DNA from: Cryptosporangium arvum DSM 44712
Lineage (GTDB): Bacteria > Actinomycetota > Actinomycetes > Mycobacteriales > Cryptosporangiaceae
Assembly: GCF_000585375.1 (NCBI RefSeq)
Contig: NZ_KK073874.1
Span: forward strand, 5,053,251-5,117,250
Length of the DNA stretch: 64,000 nt
Reading direction: 5' to 3'
The translations under genes and the position numbers were made by a program. Below the pieces are notes generated by a model. It had not been told where the DNA came from. It saw only the letters and a program-made list of their open reading frames with translations, and did not search any database. Below, one piece after another: positions 50,404 through 55,749 of the stretch (positions are counted from its first letter, which is position 1; every line of letters begins with the position of its first letter).

Positions 50404-51357
50404 GTGATCGGCAACCTCGAGACGTTCCAGGACGAGTTGGCCGCCAGCGGGTTTCCGCCGCTCGTCAACAAGTTGGCCGGGGCCGGCTTCCGCGGCCGGA
50501 TCGCCACGCGTCAGCTCGGGCCGCTGCGGCTGGTCTCCCTGGACACCCCCGAGAGCTCCTGTACCGGGCGGGAGCGCGACGCCACCGACGGCGAGAACCT
50601 GGCGATCAAGGTGATGGCCCGGGGCCGGACGCGGATCGAACAGGGTCGGGGCGACGCCGAACTCGGGCCTGCCGACCTGGTGCTGCTCGATCCCACGCGG
50701 GGGCTCCGGTTCGAGAGCACCGCCGCGGCGCACGTCACGATCCTGGTCCCGCGCCGGGAGCTCCGGATCCGGCCCGCGCTCGTCGACCGGCTCGTCGGCG
50801 TCCGCATCGACGGCCGCCACGGTCCGGGCGCTCTCGTCTCCGTGCTGGCCCGGGAGTCGGCGCGATCGGCGGCCGAGTTCCGCGAGGCGGAGGCGCTGCG
50901 GTCGGCGGCCGCCGTCATCGAGCTGATCGCGGTCGCGCTGGAGGCCCGGCTGGGCGACGGACGACCGGCCCCGGACGAGCACCTGCGCAACCGGATCGCC
51001 GGCTACATCGAGGCCCGGCTGGCTGATCCCGAGCTGTCCCCGGCCGGTATCGCCGCGGCCCACCACATCTCGGTGCGCCGCCTGCACAAGCTGTTCGAGG
51101 ACCAGCCGCTCACGGTCGCGGCCCTGATCCGTCGCCGCCGCCTGGAGCGCTGCCGGGCCGAGCTGACCGGCGGTGGACGAACGGTCACCGCCGTGGCCGC
51201 CCGGTGGGGATTCTCCGACGCCACCCATTTCAGCAAGCTCTTCAAGGCGACGTACGGCTACACCGCCCGCGCGCTGGTGACCAACAACCGTGCACGGACG
51301 ACCAAGACGCGCACAGCCGGCCCGGAACAGGATGGTGGTCACCGAAGTCGGCACTAG
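50404..51357 (+). CDS. AraC-family transcriptional regulator (AraC_binding_2-type)
   Basis: A 317-aa protein. The N-terminal AraC_binding_2-like sensor (GPLRLVSLDTPESSCTGRER, LGPADLVLLDPTRGLRFEST) precedes a typical double HTH (LSPAGIAAAHHISVRRLHKL and TVTAVAARWGFSDATHFSKL). The C-terminal tail after residue 300 is basic and disordered. It starts at GTG 50404 and is followed 12 bp later by a cupin protein, so it may control the cupin gene, the LysE gene or itself. Confidence 0.9.
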   Translation: MIGNLETFQDELAASGFPPLVNKLAGAGFRGRIATRQLGPLRLVSLDTPESSCTGRERDATDGENLAIKVMARGRTRIEQGRGDAELGPADLVLLDPTRGLRFESTAAAHVTILVPRRELRIRPALVDRLVGVRIDGRHGPGALVSVLARESARSAAEFREAEALRSAAAVIELIAVALEARLGDGRPAPDEHLRNRIAGYIEARLADPELSPAGIAAAHHISVRRLHKLFEDQPLTVAALIRRRRLERCRAELTGGGRTVTAVAARWGFSDATHFSKLFKATYGYTARALVTNNRARTTKTRTAGPEQDGGHRSRH

Positions 51358-51369
51358 TCAGGAGACGTC

Positions 51370-51831
51370 ATGGCACGGGTCAACATCGTCCGCCCCGGTG
51401 AGGGTGAGATCCTCGGCAGCGGGGCGCAGCAGATCCGGATCCTGGAGAACGGCGAGCACACCGACCACCGGCTCGGGTTCGCCGAGGTCACCATTCCGCC
51501 GGGCACCCCGAGCCCGTTGCAGCACCGCCACGCCCAGCACGACGAGGGTTTCTACGTGCTGGCCGGAACGTTCCGCTTCACCGTCGGCGAGGACCATTAC
51601 GACGCCGGGCCGGGCACGTGGGTCATCGTGCCCACCGGAGCGCCGCACACGTTCGCCAACGTCGGCGACGAGAACGCGGTCATGCTGAACACGTTCACGC
51701 CGGATCTGTACGTGCAGTACTTCCGCGACTTCAAGGCGATGATCGATTCCGGGCAGCCGATCAACGCCGAGACCATGACGCCGCTGTGGAAGAACTACGC
51801 CACCGAGATCGCGGACGACTATGCCTCGTGA
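51370..51831 (+). CDS. Cupin-domain protein
   Basis: A 153-aa single-cupin protein. Motif 1 (PLQHRHAQHDEGFYVLAGTF) gives the His-His-Glu metal triad, and motif 2 (VIVPTGAPHTFANVGDENAV) the last His. The metal site is complete, so a dioxygenase, isomerase or sensing role is possible. Start ATG 51370 is preceded by CAGGAG at 51359-51364. Function is not assignable from sequence. Confidence 0.88.
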   Translation: MARVNIVRPGEGEILGSGAQQIRILENGEHTDHRLGFAEVTIPPGTPSPLQHRHAQHDEGFYVLAGTFRFTVGEDHYDAGPGTWVIVPTGAPHTFANVGDENAVMLNTFTPDLYVQYFRDFKAMIDSGQPINAETMTPLWKNYATEIADDYAS

Positions 51832-51909
51832 CGCGCCTTCCACCGGGTACACGGCACTGATGGGCCGCGTCCGGTGCTCGTCGGGGCCGGTCGCCAGGGT
51901 TCCGCTGAC

Positions 51910-52360
51910 CTACTTCCATCGGGTCTCCGGAGATTCGGACCCGTCCTGACACCAGGTTCCCGCGAAACGACGCCCCGCTCGATCGCCGGCCCAACGCCAC
52001 GAACGCACCCGGTGAAGACCCAGCTCATCGAAGGCGAACTGGAGCGTGTCAGCGACCGCTGAGGTCGCGACTCCCCGGACGGCGTGCGAGGCGCTGACCC
52101 AAGAGCCGATCGACGCGGATCGGAACGCGCCGCGGATGATCGAGTTGAGGCGGACCTGGCCGAGCAGCTCGTCGTCCTGGTCGATGATGACCAGCGACAC
52201 GCTGCGGTCGGCGGACTCGTCGGCCAGGGCCGTCCGGATGGTGCCGGTCTGGGTACCGATCGTGAAGTAGTCGTCGTCGCGTTGGGGATTCCAGGGCGCC
52301 AAATACGCGCGATTGGCTGTCAACAGGCGCAATGAACTCCGTGTCGAACGCACGACGGTG
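51910..52360 (-). pseudogene. Degraded GNAT (RimJ/RimL-type) acetyltransferase gene
   Basis: A long open stretch on the minus strand reads LLTANRAYLAPWNPQRDDDY, FTIGTQTGTIRTALADES, LLGQVRLNSIIRGAFRSASI and GSWVSASHAVRGVATSAVAD, then TLQFAFDELGLHRV. That is the ribosomal-protein N-acetyltransferase pattern. The N-terminal helix and start codon are unclear. The expected acetyl-CoA-adjacent end (NxxSxRVLEKxGF) is missing; unrelated sequence replaces it after a frame change. Third positions are less GC-rich than in the preceding genes. Confidence 0.65.
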
Positions 52361-52361
52361 C

Positions 52362-53324
52362 TCAGATGCTCGGGCCGCTGCCCTCGCCTTGAGCTCTTGC
52401 ACGGTTTCGGAGCAATGTCCGACGCCGTCGTCGGATTGCTCGAGTCCCGGTGACAGCGACGATGAACAGGAGGCCGGTGGCCGTAGCGGCCACGATCTGT
52501 CCGGTTGGACTGTCGTAGACGAGGGCTGTTCCGCCGGCGCAAAGTGCGACGGGTAGAAGGATCGTGATCCCGCACCCGGTTGCTCCCACAGCGCCGTTGT
52601 AAGCCTCCTGGGGATCCTCGGTCACGATGGCCCGGCTTGCCGCGACCGCGTCCTTCACGGCTGCGGTGGCGTAGACCGCGCCGGAGGCCTGGGGATCCAG
52701 TGGCCGTTGGCTGCGGGTAGCTGCCCACTCGGCAGCTCTGCGTGCGGCTGCAACTTTGTGCGCGGCGTCGCGCTCGGCAGCTTGCTTCGCGGCTGCTTCG
52801 CGCTGGGCTTCCTTCTGCGCAGCGGCTCTCCGCTCAGCAACTCGACGCTCGGCGTCTCGGCGAGCGGTAGCCTCGCGCGCCGCTGCTCGGCGGGCAGCCG
52901 CCTCTCGCGCGGCGGCTTTTCCTTGCTCCAGAGCCGCGCGGTAGACGACGGTGGCCCGTGCGCTGGCCGGCGAGATGAGGCCGGTCTCCACGGCGAAGGT
53001 GAACGCTGCGATCTGGTGGTGATCGGCGTACTCGACGGCACGTTTGCTGTAGTGACTGCTGGTGAAGAAGTAGAGCTGGCCCTGCCGGAGGCCACGGGCA
53101 CCGAACAGATTCTGTAAGGCGGGCGCTCCGATTCCCGCCACCTGTCGCTTCACCTGCCCGAACGCGTCCCGGGCGATGACATCCAAGCCCTTGTCCGGCC
53201 CATCCGCCGTGACCCGCGCATCGAGATGACCGAGCCATCGCATCCAGCGGGCCGCGTTGGCCTCCGCGGCACGCCAATCAGGGATGCTCTGCGCAGCCGG
53301 TGCTCCCGGTGGCCACTGCTCCAT
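52362..53324 (-). CDS. Mrr-like restriction endonuclease domain with long coiled coil and C-terminal membrane helices
   Basis: A 320-aa protein. Residues about 13-110 form an Mrr_cat/PD-(D/E)XK-type nuclease: WMRWLGHLDARVTADG, KGLDVIARDAFGQVKRQVAG (Asp...Gln-x-Lys) and LYFFTSSHYSKRAVEYADHH. Residues about 128-205 are an uninterrupted Ala/Arg/Glu-rich helix (e.g. REAAARRAAAREATARRDAE) predicted to form a coiled coil. Two hydrophobic segments follow, GATGCGITILLPVALCAGGT and ATATGLLFIVAVTG, then a basic tail. Third positions carry many A/T bases, unlike neighbours, suggesting transfer. The fusion suggests a membrane-tethered nuclease, perhaps against incoming DNA. The initiating codon is ATG 53324. 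Confidence 0.78.
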   Translation of the reverse strand: MEQWPPGAPAAQSIPDWRAAEANAARWMRWLGHLDARVTADGPDKGLDVIARDAFGQVKRQVAGIGAPALQNLFGARGLRQGQLYFFTSSHYSKRAVEYADHHQIAAFTFAVETGLISPASARATVVYRAALEQGKAAAREAAARRAAAREATARRDAERRVAERRAAAQKEAQREAAAKQAAERDAAHKVAAARRAAEWAATRSQRPLDPQASGAVYATAAVKDAVAASRAIVTEDPQEAYNGAVGATGCGITILLPVALCAGGTALVYDSPTGQIVAATATGLLFIVAVTGTRAIRRRRRTLLRNRARAQGEGSGPSI

Positions 53325-53660
53325 CCGCCCCCCAGCTCGTTGATGGACCGCCGCACCCGCGTCGGCTGGTCAGAAGCGCACGACTCTAGCGGCGATCCGC
53401 GGCTTGCTCGAACGCCCGGACGGTCAAGGTGCTGTTTCGGTTCGCCGGTCGTGGCGTCGGTCTTGTTCCATGCCAATGGACTGGTGTGCGGGCAAGCGAG
53501 TACCCGCAGGCCACGGCTCAGATCGCCGGCGGCTGCCATGTCCGCCCTGTTCCATGCCGCGGCCGCTCGCGTCGAGAGGTGTGACGGCAGCAGCACGAGC
53601 CGGTTCGCACCTTGCCACCACCTGCCTCGCCGACCGGCCTGCACGGGTAACCGAGCAAGA
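53325..53660. other. Intergenic stretch upstream of the AraC-GyrI gene
   Basis: No gene is supported here. The word TGTTCCATGCC occurs twice, about 86 bp apart. Otherwise I see no repeats or promoters except the dyad listed at 53661. Confidence 0.5.
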
Positions 53661-53675
53661 ACCGTCAAACGGTTC
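53661..53675. promoter_or_regulatory. Inverted repeat upstream of AraC-GyrI regulator
   Basis: AACCGT-CAA-ACGGTT is a perfect 6-bp dyad 25 bp before the GTG start at 53701. TACCGT (53689-53694), ending 6 nt before the GTG, could be a leaderless -10. The dyad would then overlap the promoter spacer, a position suited to autoregulation. Confidence 0.45.
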
Positions 53676-53700
53676 GCTGCCCGGTCGGTACCGTCGAGTC

Positions 53701-54600
53701 GTGCCGTTGCGGACCCGTGAACTGCTCCGACTCCTTGCCGCCATCAACTCCCGGCTGAGCGGGGATGTCTCGCTGCCGGTCCTGGCGGTGTGGGCGCACC
53801 GGTCCCAGTTCGATCTGCACCGCCAGTTCCGGCGGCTGGTGGGCGAGACACCGAAGGCCTACACGACGCGGGTCCGGCTGGCCAGCGCTGCGGCCGAACT
53901 GGTGTCCACCGACCGTCGAGTGTCGGCGGTGGCGTTCGACCACGGGTTCGCCAGTCATGAGGTCTTCACCCGGACTTTCACCCGCCACTTCGGTCACAGC
54001 CCGCGGGAGTACCGCACCCGCGGGCTCCACGTCGCTGGCCGGCGCACAGCCGCCGTGCACGCCTCGACGGTGGGTTCGACGGCGCCCTGCATCAGCCTTT
54101 ACCGCATCAGCACCGCTGAGAGGAAACCTGCTGTGCCGCTCGACATTTCCGTTCGCGACCTGTCCGCCTTCCACGCCCTCGTGATGCGCCGCCGGGTGAC
54201 CCGCGACGAGATCGCGACCGCGCTCGCAGAGAGTCTGCCAACCGTGTTCGGGTACGCCCAGCGGCACGGGCTGACCATCACCGGTCCGCCGTTCGCCCGC
54301 TATCCGGAGGTGGGGATGGGGTCACTCGTCATCGAGGGAGGCATAACCGTTGCGGCGCCCCCGTCGGCGGCACTCGACGACGGGATCGAGGCGCTCGCTA
54401 TCCCGGCGGGGCGGGCGGTGGTAGCCCTCCACCGGGGGCCTTACGACTGCCTGCCCGAGTCCTACCAAGAGATCGAGAGGTGGATGCGCGACCAGGGATT
54501 GTCCGCGGCGGCAGCGCCGTGGGAGACGTATCTGACCGATCCCGGAGAGCGCCCCGATCCGGCGACCTGGGAAACGGAAATCGTCCAACCCGTCCGGTGA
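53701..54600 (+). CDS. AraC-family regulator with C-terminal GyrI-like effector domain
   Basis: A 299-aa protein with reversed domain order. The N-terminal double HTH is LLRLLAAINSRLSGDVSLPV, RSQFDLHRQFRRLVGETPKA, then VSAVAFDHGFASHEVFTRTF and GHSPREYRTRG. The C-terminal half is a GyrI/SOUL-like small-molecule binding domain (IPAGRAVVALHRGPYDCLPE, SYQEIERWMRDQGLSAAAAP, WETYLTDPGERPDPATWET). MarA/Rob-type relatives sense drugs or lipophilic compounds. GTG 53701 is chosen from the HTH start and the -10-like element before it. Confidence 0.88.
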   Translation: MPLRTRELLRLLAAINSRLSGDVSLPVLAVWAHRSQFDLHRQFRRLVGETPKAYTTRVRLASAAAELVSTDRRVSAVAFDHGFASHEVFTRTFTRHFGHSPREYRTRGLHVAGRRTAAVHASTVGSTAPCISLYRISTAERKPAVPLDISVRDLSAFHALVMRRRVTRDEIATALAESLPTVFGYAQRHGLTITGPPFARYPEVGMGSLVIEGGITVAAPPSAALDDGIEALAIPAGRAVVALHRGPYDCLPESYQEIERWMRDQGLSAAAAPWETYLTDPGERPDPATWETEIVQPVR

Positions 54601-54714
54601 CGCCTACACGGCGCTGACCTGACAAGCCAGCAAGAATGTCGTCGTCGGAGCGTCTCGGTCCAGTGAGCGAATGCCCGACTGAGCGTCGGGGACGCGTTGA
54701 CTCTCATGTCGCAG

Positions 54715-54918
54715 TCAGATCGGCAAATACTGCTCGGCTCGTTTCCAGACCGCGATGCTGGCCTCGCGGTCCTGACTGGAGACCGCTGAACGACGCCAGC
54801 CGCCGTCGCCGGTGGCGTGCGCGACCGAGCGGTCTGTCATGTCTTCGAGCCAGCGCAGGCTGGGCAGTCGGAGAGCGTCAGAACCGCTCACGGACAGGCT
54901 CGCGACGAGCAGTTTCAC
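54715..54918 (-). CDS. Unidentified 67-aa fragment
   Basis: The minus strand encodes a 67-aa frame beginning with GTG. It contains DALRLPSLRWLEDMTDRSVA, then HATGDGGWRRSAVSSQDREA, ending in WKRAEQYLPI. The codon pattern is coding-like. It looks like the tail of a larger protein rather than a full gene because a stop lies a few codons upstream. I do not recognise the family. It lies inside a stretch of decayed genes next to the kinase pseudogene. Confidence 0.35.
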   Translation of the reverse strand: MKLLVASLSVSGSDALRLPSLRWLEDMTDRSVAHATGDGGWRRSAVSSQDREASIAVWKRAEQYLPI

Positions 54919-54924
54919 GACGAG

Positions 54925-55749
54925 GCGTACGGCGCTGTTCGGCCTGCTTCAACGCTAGGAATTCGCCGGTCGGCGCACCTCCGGCGCCAGGTCGGTCGCC
55001 CGTGCTTGAGGGTGTTCGTCACCGCACGACCGCGGCCGGAGTCTGGTCGACGACGTGGTCCTCGACCGTGATCGTGTCGATCTCCGGCCGCACGTCGAGC
55101 AGTCCGAACAGTTCGCGAGCGGCAGCCAGCTCGTCGCCGAGGCTGATGAGCACCGGCCCGCCGGTCAGCGCCCGGAGCCTGGCGTGACCGTCGATCAGTG
55201 ACCGGAGTGTGGTGAGCTGGACCCGGCAGCGTTCGACGTCGGAGTCGAGCAGGCGCAGCGCGGCCTCGTTGCACCACGGTGCCGCGACGAGCGTGCGGCC
55301 GAGCGAAAATCGTGCAGCTCGCGGGAGATCCGGAGCCGCTCCTCGTCCACGCGGGCACGGGCCATCTCCTCCCGGGTCCGGCGCAGTTCGTGGAGTACGA
55401 CGCGCTGCCGGGTCGGGACGTACAGGCCGAAGCCGCAGACGATCACCGTCGCGGCGAGCGAAATCAGGCTGATGACGGGGGTGCCGTCCGACTTCGCGAT
55501 CAGTAGCACGACGTCGGCCGCGCTGAGCAGTGCTACGGCCCACGTCCCCCGCCGGCCCACGTCCCCCGCCGGCCCGCAGCCCCTTGCGGACCAGGGCCTC
55601 GAACCGCAGGTAGCACTCGGCGACCAAGCCATTGAGCACGTCGCAGAAGACCTGGACCGGCAGCATCACGTTCCCCTGCCCGCGCTGCGCGCGAGGGCCT
55701 GCCCGACGCTGAAGACGTTCAGGAGCAGAACCAGCAGCCACACACCCAT
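54925..55749 (-). pseudogene. DesK-type sensor histidine kinase pseudogene
   Basis: Pieces of one kinase can be followed in three frames. From ATG 55749: MGVWLLVLLLNVFSVGQALA, then after a frame change VMLPVQVFCDVLNGLVAECY, then WAVALLSAADVVLLIAKSDG with RVDEERLRISRELHDF (the H-box). The expected residues after HDF are lost. SLGRTLVAAPWCNEAALRLL and PVLISLGDELAAARELFGLL follow in another frame, then VTNTLKHG (the N-box) in a further frame. The rest of the ATPase domain is not found. At least three lesions make it inactive. No response-regulator gene is adjacent. Confidence 0.8.

Follow-up and report, generated by a model that had tools for sequence, protein, structure and literature searches.

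A predicted membrane-anchored Mrr-type nuclease with a long helical spacer, encoded by a member of a sporadic actinobacterial family

Organisation of the locus

The window analysed here, i.e. the whole stretch of 64,000 nucleotides from Cryptosporangium arvum DSM 44712, carries on its reverse strand an uninterrupted open reading frame of 320 codons with an ATG start (Table 1), and both motifs that an earlier note on this DNA had quoted were found in its translation. The earlier note had read the product as an Mrr_cat-like nuclease domain joined to a long helix and two hydrophobic segments, and had suggested a profile search and structure modelling as checks. Both were performed: the Pfam search returned the nuclease signature (Mrr_cat, PF04471; 32.8 bits, gathering cut-off 21, E 8.4e-8, residues 16–106), while the AlphaFold2 model of the 320-aa protein (mean pLDDT 84.8; alignment of 40 rows) consists, in this order, of a compact nuclease domain, an unbroken helix, a loose segment and a pair of hydrophobic helices.

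Table 1. Features of the nuclease gene and of the adjoining gene fragment (positions in the window)
Feature	Position	Strand	Basis
Whole open reading frame, 320 aa; predicted Mrr_cat nuclease, long helix, two hydrophobic helices	52362..53324	-	Pfam, AlphaFold2
Predicted Mrr_cat PD-(D/E)XK nuclease domain, residues 16-120	52965..53279	-	Pfam 16-106; block pLDDT 86-98; VIA-align nuclease matches
E21, putative active-site helix glutamate	53262..53264	-	E in 38/40 rows, 2 gaps
D48, putative catalytic aspartate	53181..53183	-	40/40 rows, query included
Q57-V58-K59, QxK motif	53148..53156	-	Q57 and K59 in 40/40 rows, query included
Predicted continuous helix, residues 122-204, Ala/Arg/Glu-rich, net positive	52713..52961	-	Model, block pLDDT 95-98; composition
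Predicted first hydrophobic helix, residues 248-265	52530..52583	-	Hydropathy; model, pLDDT only about 46-61
Predicted second hydrophobic helix and Arg-rich tail, residues 273-313	52386..52508	-	Hydropathy; pLDDT about 79-92 to residue 310
GNAT acetyltransferase fragment, truncated, adjoining the stop codon of the nuclease gene	51910..52362	-	Pfam Acetyltransf_3, profile 34-119 of 138

The GNAT fragment is probably not part of the nuclease system. The third-position GC content (GC3) of the nuclease gene is 0.717, as compared to 0.83–0.92 for two AraC genes, a cupin gene and the GNAT core, in agreement with the lower GC3 claimed previously. The accompanying claim, that the gene lies among decayed genes, holds only in part: the GNAT fragment and three overlapping frames at 54.9–55.7 kb, for which no Pfam match was obtained, fit this description, whereas the matches of both AraC regulators and of the cupin cover almost the entire Pfam profile. 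The overall GC content is 0.68 across positions 51001–55000 and 0.72–0.77 in the preceding 5 kb, and a 66 bp segment inside the truncated GNAT frame (51940–52005) has three other genomic copies at 80–95% identity. The nuclease gene is single-copy in its genome and is absent from the other genomes of the genus (0/3), to which the DNA of the locus gives matches scattered across many contigs, so that no empty site could be recognised. Acquisition of the gene, as previously suggested, is supported at the sequence level by this absence, by its sporadic occurrence (see below) and by its low GC3.

The nuclease domain

To retrieve relatives, an alignment of ten nuclease domains was used as query, the pattern of which was derived from actinobacterial members and includes E21. 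Since E21 lies inside the peptide pattern that fetched the rows, its conservation is not independent, and only D48, Q57 and K59, identical in all 40 aligned rows with the query included, provide independent evidence. We take the E, D and QxK residues to be an Mrr-type active site, the role of E21 being assumed from the superfamily. Averaged over the 40-row alignment, the commonest residue has a frequency of 0.67 in the nuclease, as compared to 0.16 and 0.30 in the linker and the transmembrane region, respectively; the sequences thus have a conserved nuclease and a variable spacer and anchor.

Comparison of the predicted fold with solved structures by VIA-align, in which a Z score under 8 is considered unspecific, placed AF1548, titled 'unknown function', in the best row (Z 10.0, rmsd 3.8, 108 aligned), followed by nucleases, namely the CRISPR ancillary nuclease 8bao (8.6), EndoMS (8.6), a repair endonuclease (8.5) and MspJI (8.4), with AspBHI (7.9) and the archaeal Holliday-junction resolvase 1gef (6.6) also among the fold matches. 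The predicted fold therefore matches those of solved PD-(D/E)XK nucleases. Foldseek returned no match in the PDB at E ≤ 0.001 (the best being AspBHI at 0.018), and in its viral set it returned phage proteins named 'restriction endonuclease', down to E 2.8e-6. A sequence search of the PDB produced chance-like matches taking in the helix region, mostly maltose-binding-protein fusions. Together, the profile match, the conserved active site and the predicted fold make the identity of the domain as a nuclease, also put forward in the earlier note, a well supported prediction. Neither an Mrr N-terminal domain nor any other modification-reading domain was present among the Pfam matches at E ≤ 1, and both these matches and the AlphaFold2 model place the nuclease start at residue 16, with no domain before it.

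The helical spacer

The segment behind the nuclease had been described as an uninterrupted Ala/Arg/Glu-rich coiled coil of about 80 residues. The helix itself is reproduced with confidence by the AlphaFold2 model (83 residues), and the longest stretch devoid of Gly and Pro (residues 136–207; 72 aa) contains 31 Ala, 20 Lys or Arg and 10 Asp or Glu residues. The coiled-coil part of the description was not supported, as the hydrophobic periodicity of the query linker at 3.5 and 3.6 was not above that of shuffled sequences in a simple test (p 0.23 and 0.34, respectively); a heptad coiled coil in this linker was consequently set aside as unsupported, as far as a simple periodicity test, which is no dedicated predictor, reaches. 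Opposite charges at i,i+4 were observed nine times versus 5.3 expected from shuffles (p 0.052). The linker reads better as a stable cationic single-helix spacer than as a coiled coil. Sub-threshold matches to histone H1-like and TolA models are ascribed to the composition of the helix. Long charged linkers (at least 55 residues) occur in three of the 39 other members (L014, L044 and L016), with shorter ones elsewhere, and L014, a Rhodococcus relative that was modelled likewise, is predicted to comprise a nuclease, a 103-residue helix (112–214) and two hydrophobic helices.

The C-terminal membrane anchor

The two hydrophobic segments claimed for this protein are evident from the best 19-residue Kyte-Doolittle means, 2.04 (residues 251–269) and 1.71 (residues 275–293), both above 1.6. 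Lys or Arg accounts for nine of the last 28 residues, but for none of the nine that separate the hydrophobic helices; this distribution suggests that the C-terminus forms a hairpin in the membrane with both ends in the cytoplasm. Among the genome relatives, 32 of 36 possess hydrophobic segments C-terminal to the nuclease, as compared to 121 of 368 background open reading frames of 150–450 aa from which those of the family were excluded (hydropathy threshold 1.6; p 4e-11). Because so many of the background frames pass this threshold, a single hydrophobic segment is weak evidence; however, the contrast persists at thresholds of 1.8 and 2.0 (30/36 relatives versus 90/368 and 61/368 background frames, respectively). 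The four relatives below threshold are L017, L029, L040 and L042. Membrane anchoring is thus well supported by sequence and model, as predicted hydrophobic anchors are found both in the query and in the great majority of its relatives.

Generic Mrr_cat proteins are arranged differently: in the best-scoring 30 loci, 13 have hydrophobic segments (as against 32 of 36 relatives; p 1e-4), all 13 N-terminally and one also C-terminally. A more distant relative (L055:1144-2871, reverse strand) has hydrophobic segments and a charged stretch first, Mrr_cat later, and then an FtsK_gamma-like match (24.5 bits, under the cut-off of 30.6); as its segments lie at the opposite end, tethering would be seen here in reversed order.

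Relatives and distribution

A search of genome contigs with the single protein gave no match; the alignment search retrieved 36 genomic loci, each of which has an actinomycete title, and a further four from IMG/VR. Among 72,556 plasmid records, the nuclease domain has matches in 48 at E ≤ 1e-3; Rhodococcus, Curtobacterium or Streptomyces account for 41 of these, and 19 of the 20 plasmid matches listed are annotated as 'restriction endonuclease' under the match. None of 50,697 phage records holds a relative. The gene was found in five of the 61 genomes searched, its own included, with an inner stop in one match; in relative L005, the stop falls where the nuclease domain ends. In Streptomyces, a DNA search that detects close variants only found one in four of 121 genomes, the source genome of the query counted. 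Across the phylum, 62 of 396 genomes match, yet only five places, including that of the query itself, do so at E ≤ 1e-34; since those of the lower matches that were translated proved to be other Mrr proteins or paralogues lacking the catalytic lysine, 62 genomes is not the size of the family. The protein is thus a member of a sporadic actinobacterial family.

In a tree of 48 rows and 112 columns, charged linkers appear in separate groups, L014/L044/L046 and L016/L025/L035. The query joins neither of these with support, and its position is unsure because of its long branch (1.41 versus a median of 0.14).

Members encoded on virus-like contigs include L049:7998-8474 and L051:7974-8450, each a minimal Mrr protein of 158 aa with one hydrophobic segment. 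The L049 gene has a major head protein gene on one side and a gene for a tail-spike-like protein on the other, and the two contigs share a 5.9-kb block at 91% identity.

Gene neighbourhood and mobility

Neighbouring open reading frames were taken from a simple ORF caller. Under a strict rule, no neighbour gene family recurs in at least three of 47 loci; when the rule is relaxed, the largest cluster of neighbours covers four loci. Defence genes were sought in the 138 nearest and 112 outermost open reading frames of the 36 loci, frames over 1,000 aa being dropped, and in PADLOC the near and far sets both match defence families (best 25 of 61 and best 25 of 52 families, respectively). The matches of PADLOC profiles to the query itself are weak and cover the nuclease only, as exemplified by PDC-S02 (E 6.1e-7; profile positions 215–292 of 334). 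A phage integrase is present in four of the 138 near frames, and relatives on two Rhodococcus plasmids lie 1–4 kb from relaxase genes. Transfer RNA genes occur in the compared flank of seven of 36 loci, one of them approximately 450 bp from the gene (L040), and follow no pattern.

When close relatives were compared on the same strand, 29 of 32 pairs were without homologous flanking DNA beyond the gene block, the exceptions being 118 bp, 345 bp and, in the virus-like pair, 7,144 bp; the gene block of L044/L046 extends by 369 bp. A gene-sized mobile unit was considered on this account and dropped, as a control module located beside L038 shows the same shuffling in other Streptomyces: homology ends before the nuclease in 29 of 29 loci, and L153 shares with L154–L156 (19 kb each) only that module of about 2.8 kb. 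Shuffling of flanks is hence not special to the nuclease gene, which is an accessory gene; nothing more is claimed regarding its mobility.

Comparison with known systems

As reported (PMC13190303), SNIPE (PD-lambda-1) of Escherichia coli is a nuclease bound to the membrane, where it cleaves phage DNA while this is being injected. It is built of an anchor in the inner membrane, a central domain and a nuclease on the cytoplasmic side, of which the nuclease is conserved and the anchor region diversified, and host DNA is cut if the anchor is removed. The same source describes that host DNA drawn to the membrane is not cut, that plasmid transformation is not blocked, and that SNIPE associates with tape measure proteins, through which it probably acts; for these reasons, place alone would not be the whole basis on which SNIPE spares its host. 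With SNIPE already published, the defence design is less novel than the 'little-studied' one envisaged in the earlier note.

The present protein resembles SNIPE, as described there, in being a single protein predicted to have a membrane anchor, an elongated middle part and a cytoplasmic nuclease, and in its conserved nuclease and varied anchor region. Conversely, the anchor of SNIPE is N-terminal while the one predicted here by the model is C-terminal, and the GIY-YIG and DUF4041 domains of SNIPE are absent among the Pfam families of the query at E ≤ 1. The lack of a common Pfam domain and the reversed order lead us to propose convergence of design and not membership: judged by its sequence, the protein is analogous to SNIPE and is no SNIPE member.

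Other systems share individual elements. Proteins of actinobacteria annotated as 'restriction endonuclease' with Mrr_cat have the same domain, active site and annotation, but carry their hydrophobic segments, where present among the best-scoring loci (see above), N-terminally, while the anchor predicted here is C-terminal, behind a spacer. An E. coli phage defence protein is described as having an N-terminal Mrr-family nuclease joined to a non-nuclease part (PMC9519451), in its case a beta-propeller where helix and anchor are predicted here. The ZorD protein of Zorya is stated to carry an Mrr-like nuclease domain (PMC11890865; PMC12904381) and likewise works with a membrane component; however, Zorya, as portrayed there, is made up of several genes, with the motor (ZorAB) as a component of its own, whereas no widely conserved partner was detected across the 47 loci. 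E. coli Mrr and Rv2528c, given as type IV restriction enzymes (PMC11279042), also possess an Mrr-type catalytic domain, yet their outlined architecture is an N-terminal region, a linker and a C-terminal region, as opposed to nuclease first and anchor behind. Finally, in the coiled-coil nuclease tandems (CoCoNuTs; PMC11090510) a nuclease is similarly joined to long helices, but these are presented as McrBC-type systems, and no GTPase domain is present among the query's own Pfam matches. A membrane-tethered Mrr design was not found in the open-access literature at the level of titles and abstract openings, and other journals may have it.

Proposed role and alternative explanations

We propose that the protein is a solitary, membrane-anchored DNA endonuclease of the Mrr_cat PD-(D/E)XK type that distinguishes self from non-self by place and cuts arriving phage or conjugating DNA, a reading to which we give an even chance. 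The C-terminal hairpin would sit in the cytoplasmic membrane with the Arg-rich tail inside and both ends cytoplasmic, and the stiff cationic helix, of roughly 12 nm, would suspend the nuclease beneath the membrane. An enzyme of this kind that lacks a recognition domain would have to be kept away from the chromosome; the tether would keep it off the nucleoid and position it where DNA enters, such that location and not a mark on the DNA would separate self from non-self, and phage or conjugating DNA would be cut as it reaches the inner side of the membrane. Differences in spacer and anchor would determine how far the nuclease reaches and which partner it has. Incoming DNA is put forward as the target because of the analogy with SNIPE, the scattered distribution of the family and its carriage by plasmids and virus-like contigs, and a defence role is plausible. 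Points that weigh against this reading are the four relatives below the hydropathy threshold, the stop in L005, the low model confidence of the first hydrophobic helix, the missing heptad pattern of the linker, the long branch and truncated neighbour of the query, and the finding that SNIPE spares host DNA drawn to the membrane; as to defence in particular, near and far neighbours alike hold defence families, the PADLOC matches of the query are weak, and the phage records contain no relative.

A modification-dependent (type IV-like) restriction enzyme, cutting foreign DNA by virtue of its modification anywhere in the cell and carrying its anchor incidentally, would account for Mrr_cat being a domain of Mrr and for the presence of the modification-dependent MspJI and AspBHI among the fold matches. 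We nevertheless regard it as unlikely, as no modification-reading domain is seen among the Pfam matches at E ≤ 1, the nuclease from residue 16 onwards being followed by helix and anchor only, and as 32 of 36 genome relatives have hydrophobic anchors. Rather more doubtful is an enzyme of plasmid, prophage or host that processes DNA at the membrane (in junction resolution, segregation or uptake) with no part in defence. The fold shared with archaeal Holliday-junction resolvases, the relaxase genes near the relatives on the two Rhodococcus plasmids and the sub-threshold FtsK_gamma match of L055 would agree with such a role, but the sporadic occurrence of the gene, both in Streptomyces (close variants only, source counted) and in its own genus, and the lack of a widely conserved neighbour gene argue against it.

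The gene of this particular strain might, alternatively, be decaying or have lost its function, as its long branch and the adjacent truncated GNAT gene would allow, along with its low GC3. Set against this are the open frame of 320 codons, the intact active site and the confident model of nuclease and helix, and we deem such a loss improbable.

Beyond cutting of incoming DNA by a tethered nuclease in this strain, we tentatively suggest, and hold to be somewhat doubtful, that Actinobacteria, together with the plasmids and prophages they carry, arrived independently at a single-gene equivalent of SNIPE, in which an Mrr nuclease is suspended beneath the membrane on an exchangeable helical or disordered spacer, the chromosome is spared by distance, DNA is destroyed where it enters, the helix serves as both ruler and DNA guide, and copies on phages and plasmids exclude rivals. 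If true, membrane placement of a nuclease would be a recurrent solution to the self/non-self problem, reached with unrelated nucleases (GIY-YIG in SNIPE and Mrr here), and a function would be provided for actinobacterial plasmid proteins whose sole annotation is 'restriction endonuclease'. In this family, a well-known type of nuclease would be combined with a design whose meaning has only recently emerged, and natural variants are ready for testing: variation in spacer length, anchor number and domain order makes the relation between tether and self-cutting directly testable.

Divergent relatives

Several relatives depart from the above layout. In the Streptomyces genus group, L058–L062, L064, L065 and L070 have N-termini rich in cysteine, together with a related Mrr-like domain; in this domain, by eye, the lysine of QxK is replaced by Asp in all eight and the catalytic Asp by Gly in five (L059–L062 and L070); from these replacements, they are probably nuclease-dead paralogues. 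In L039 and L041, the hydrophobic segments are followed at the C-terminus by a helix-hairpin-helix-like motif (HHH_3 in L039 at 23.5 bits, with a cut-off of 27). The plasmid-borne L012:8980-9903 is a tandem of two Mrr-like domains, with two Mrr_cat stretches, the second of which is by eye without the QVK motif. On a Curtobacterium plasmid (L010:7291-9747), the family member and a SIR2 family gene are neighbours in divergent orientation.
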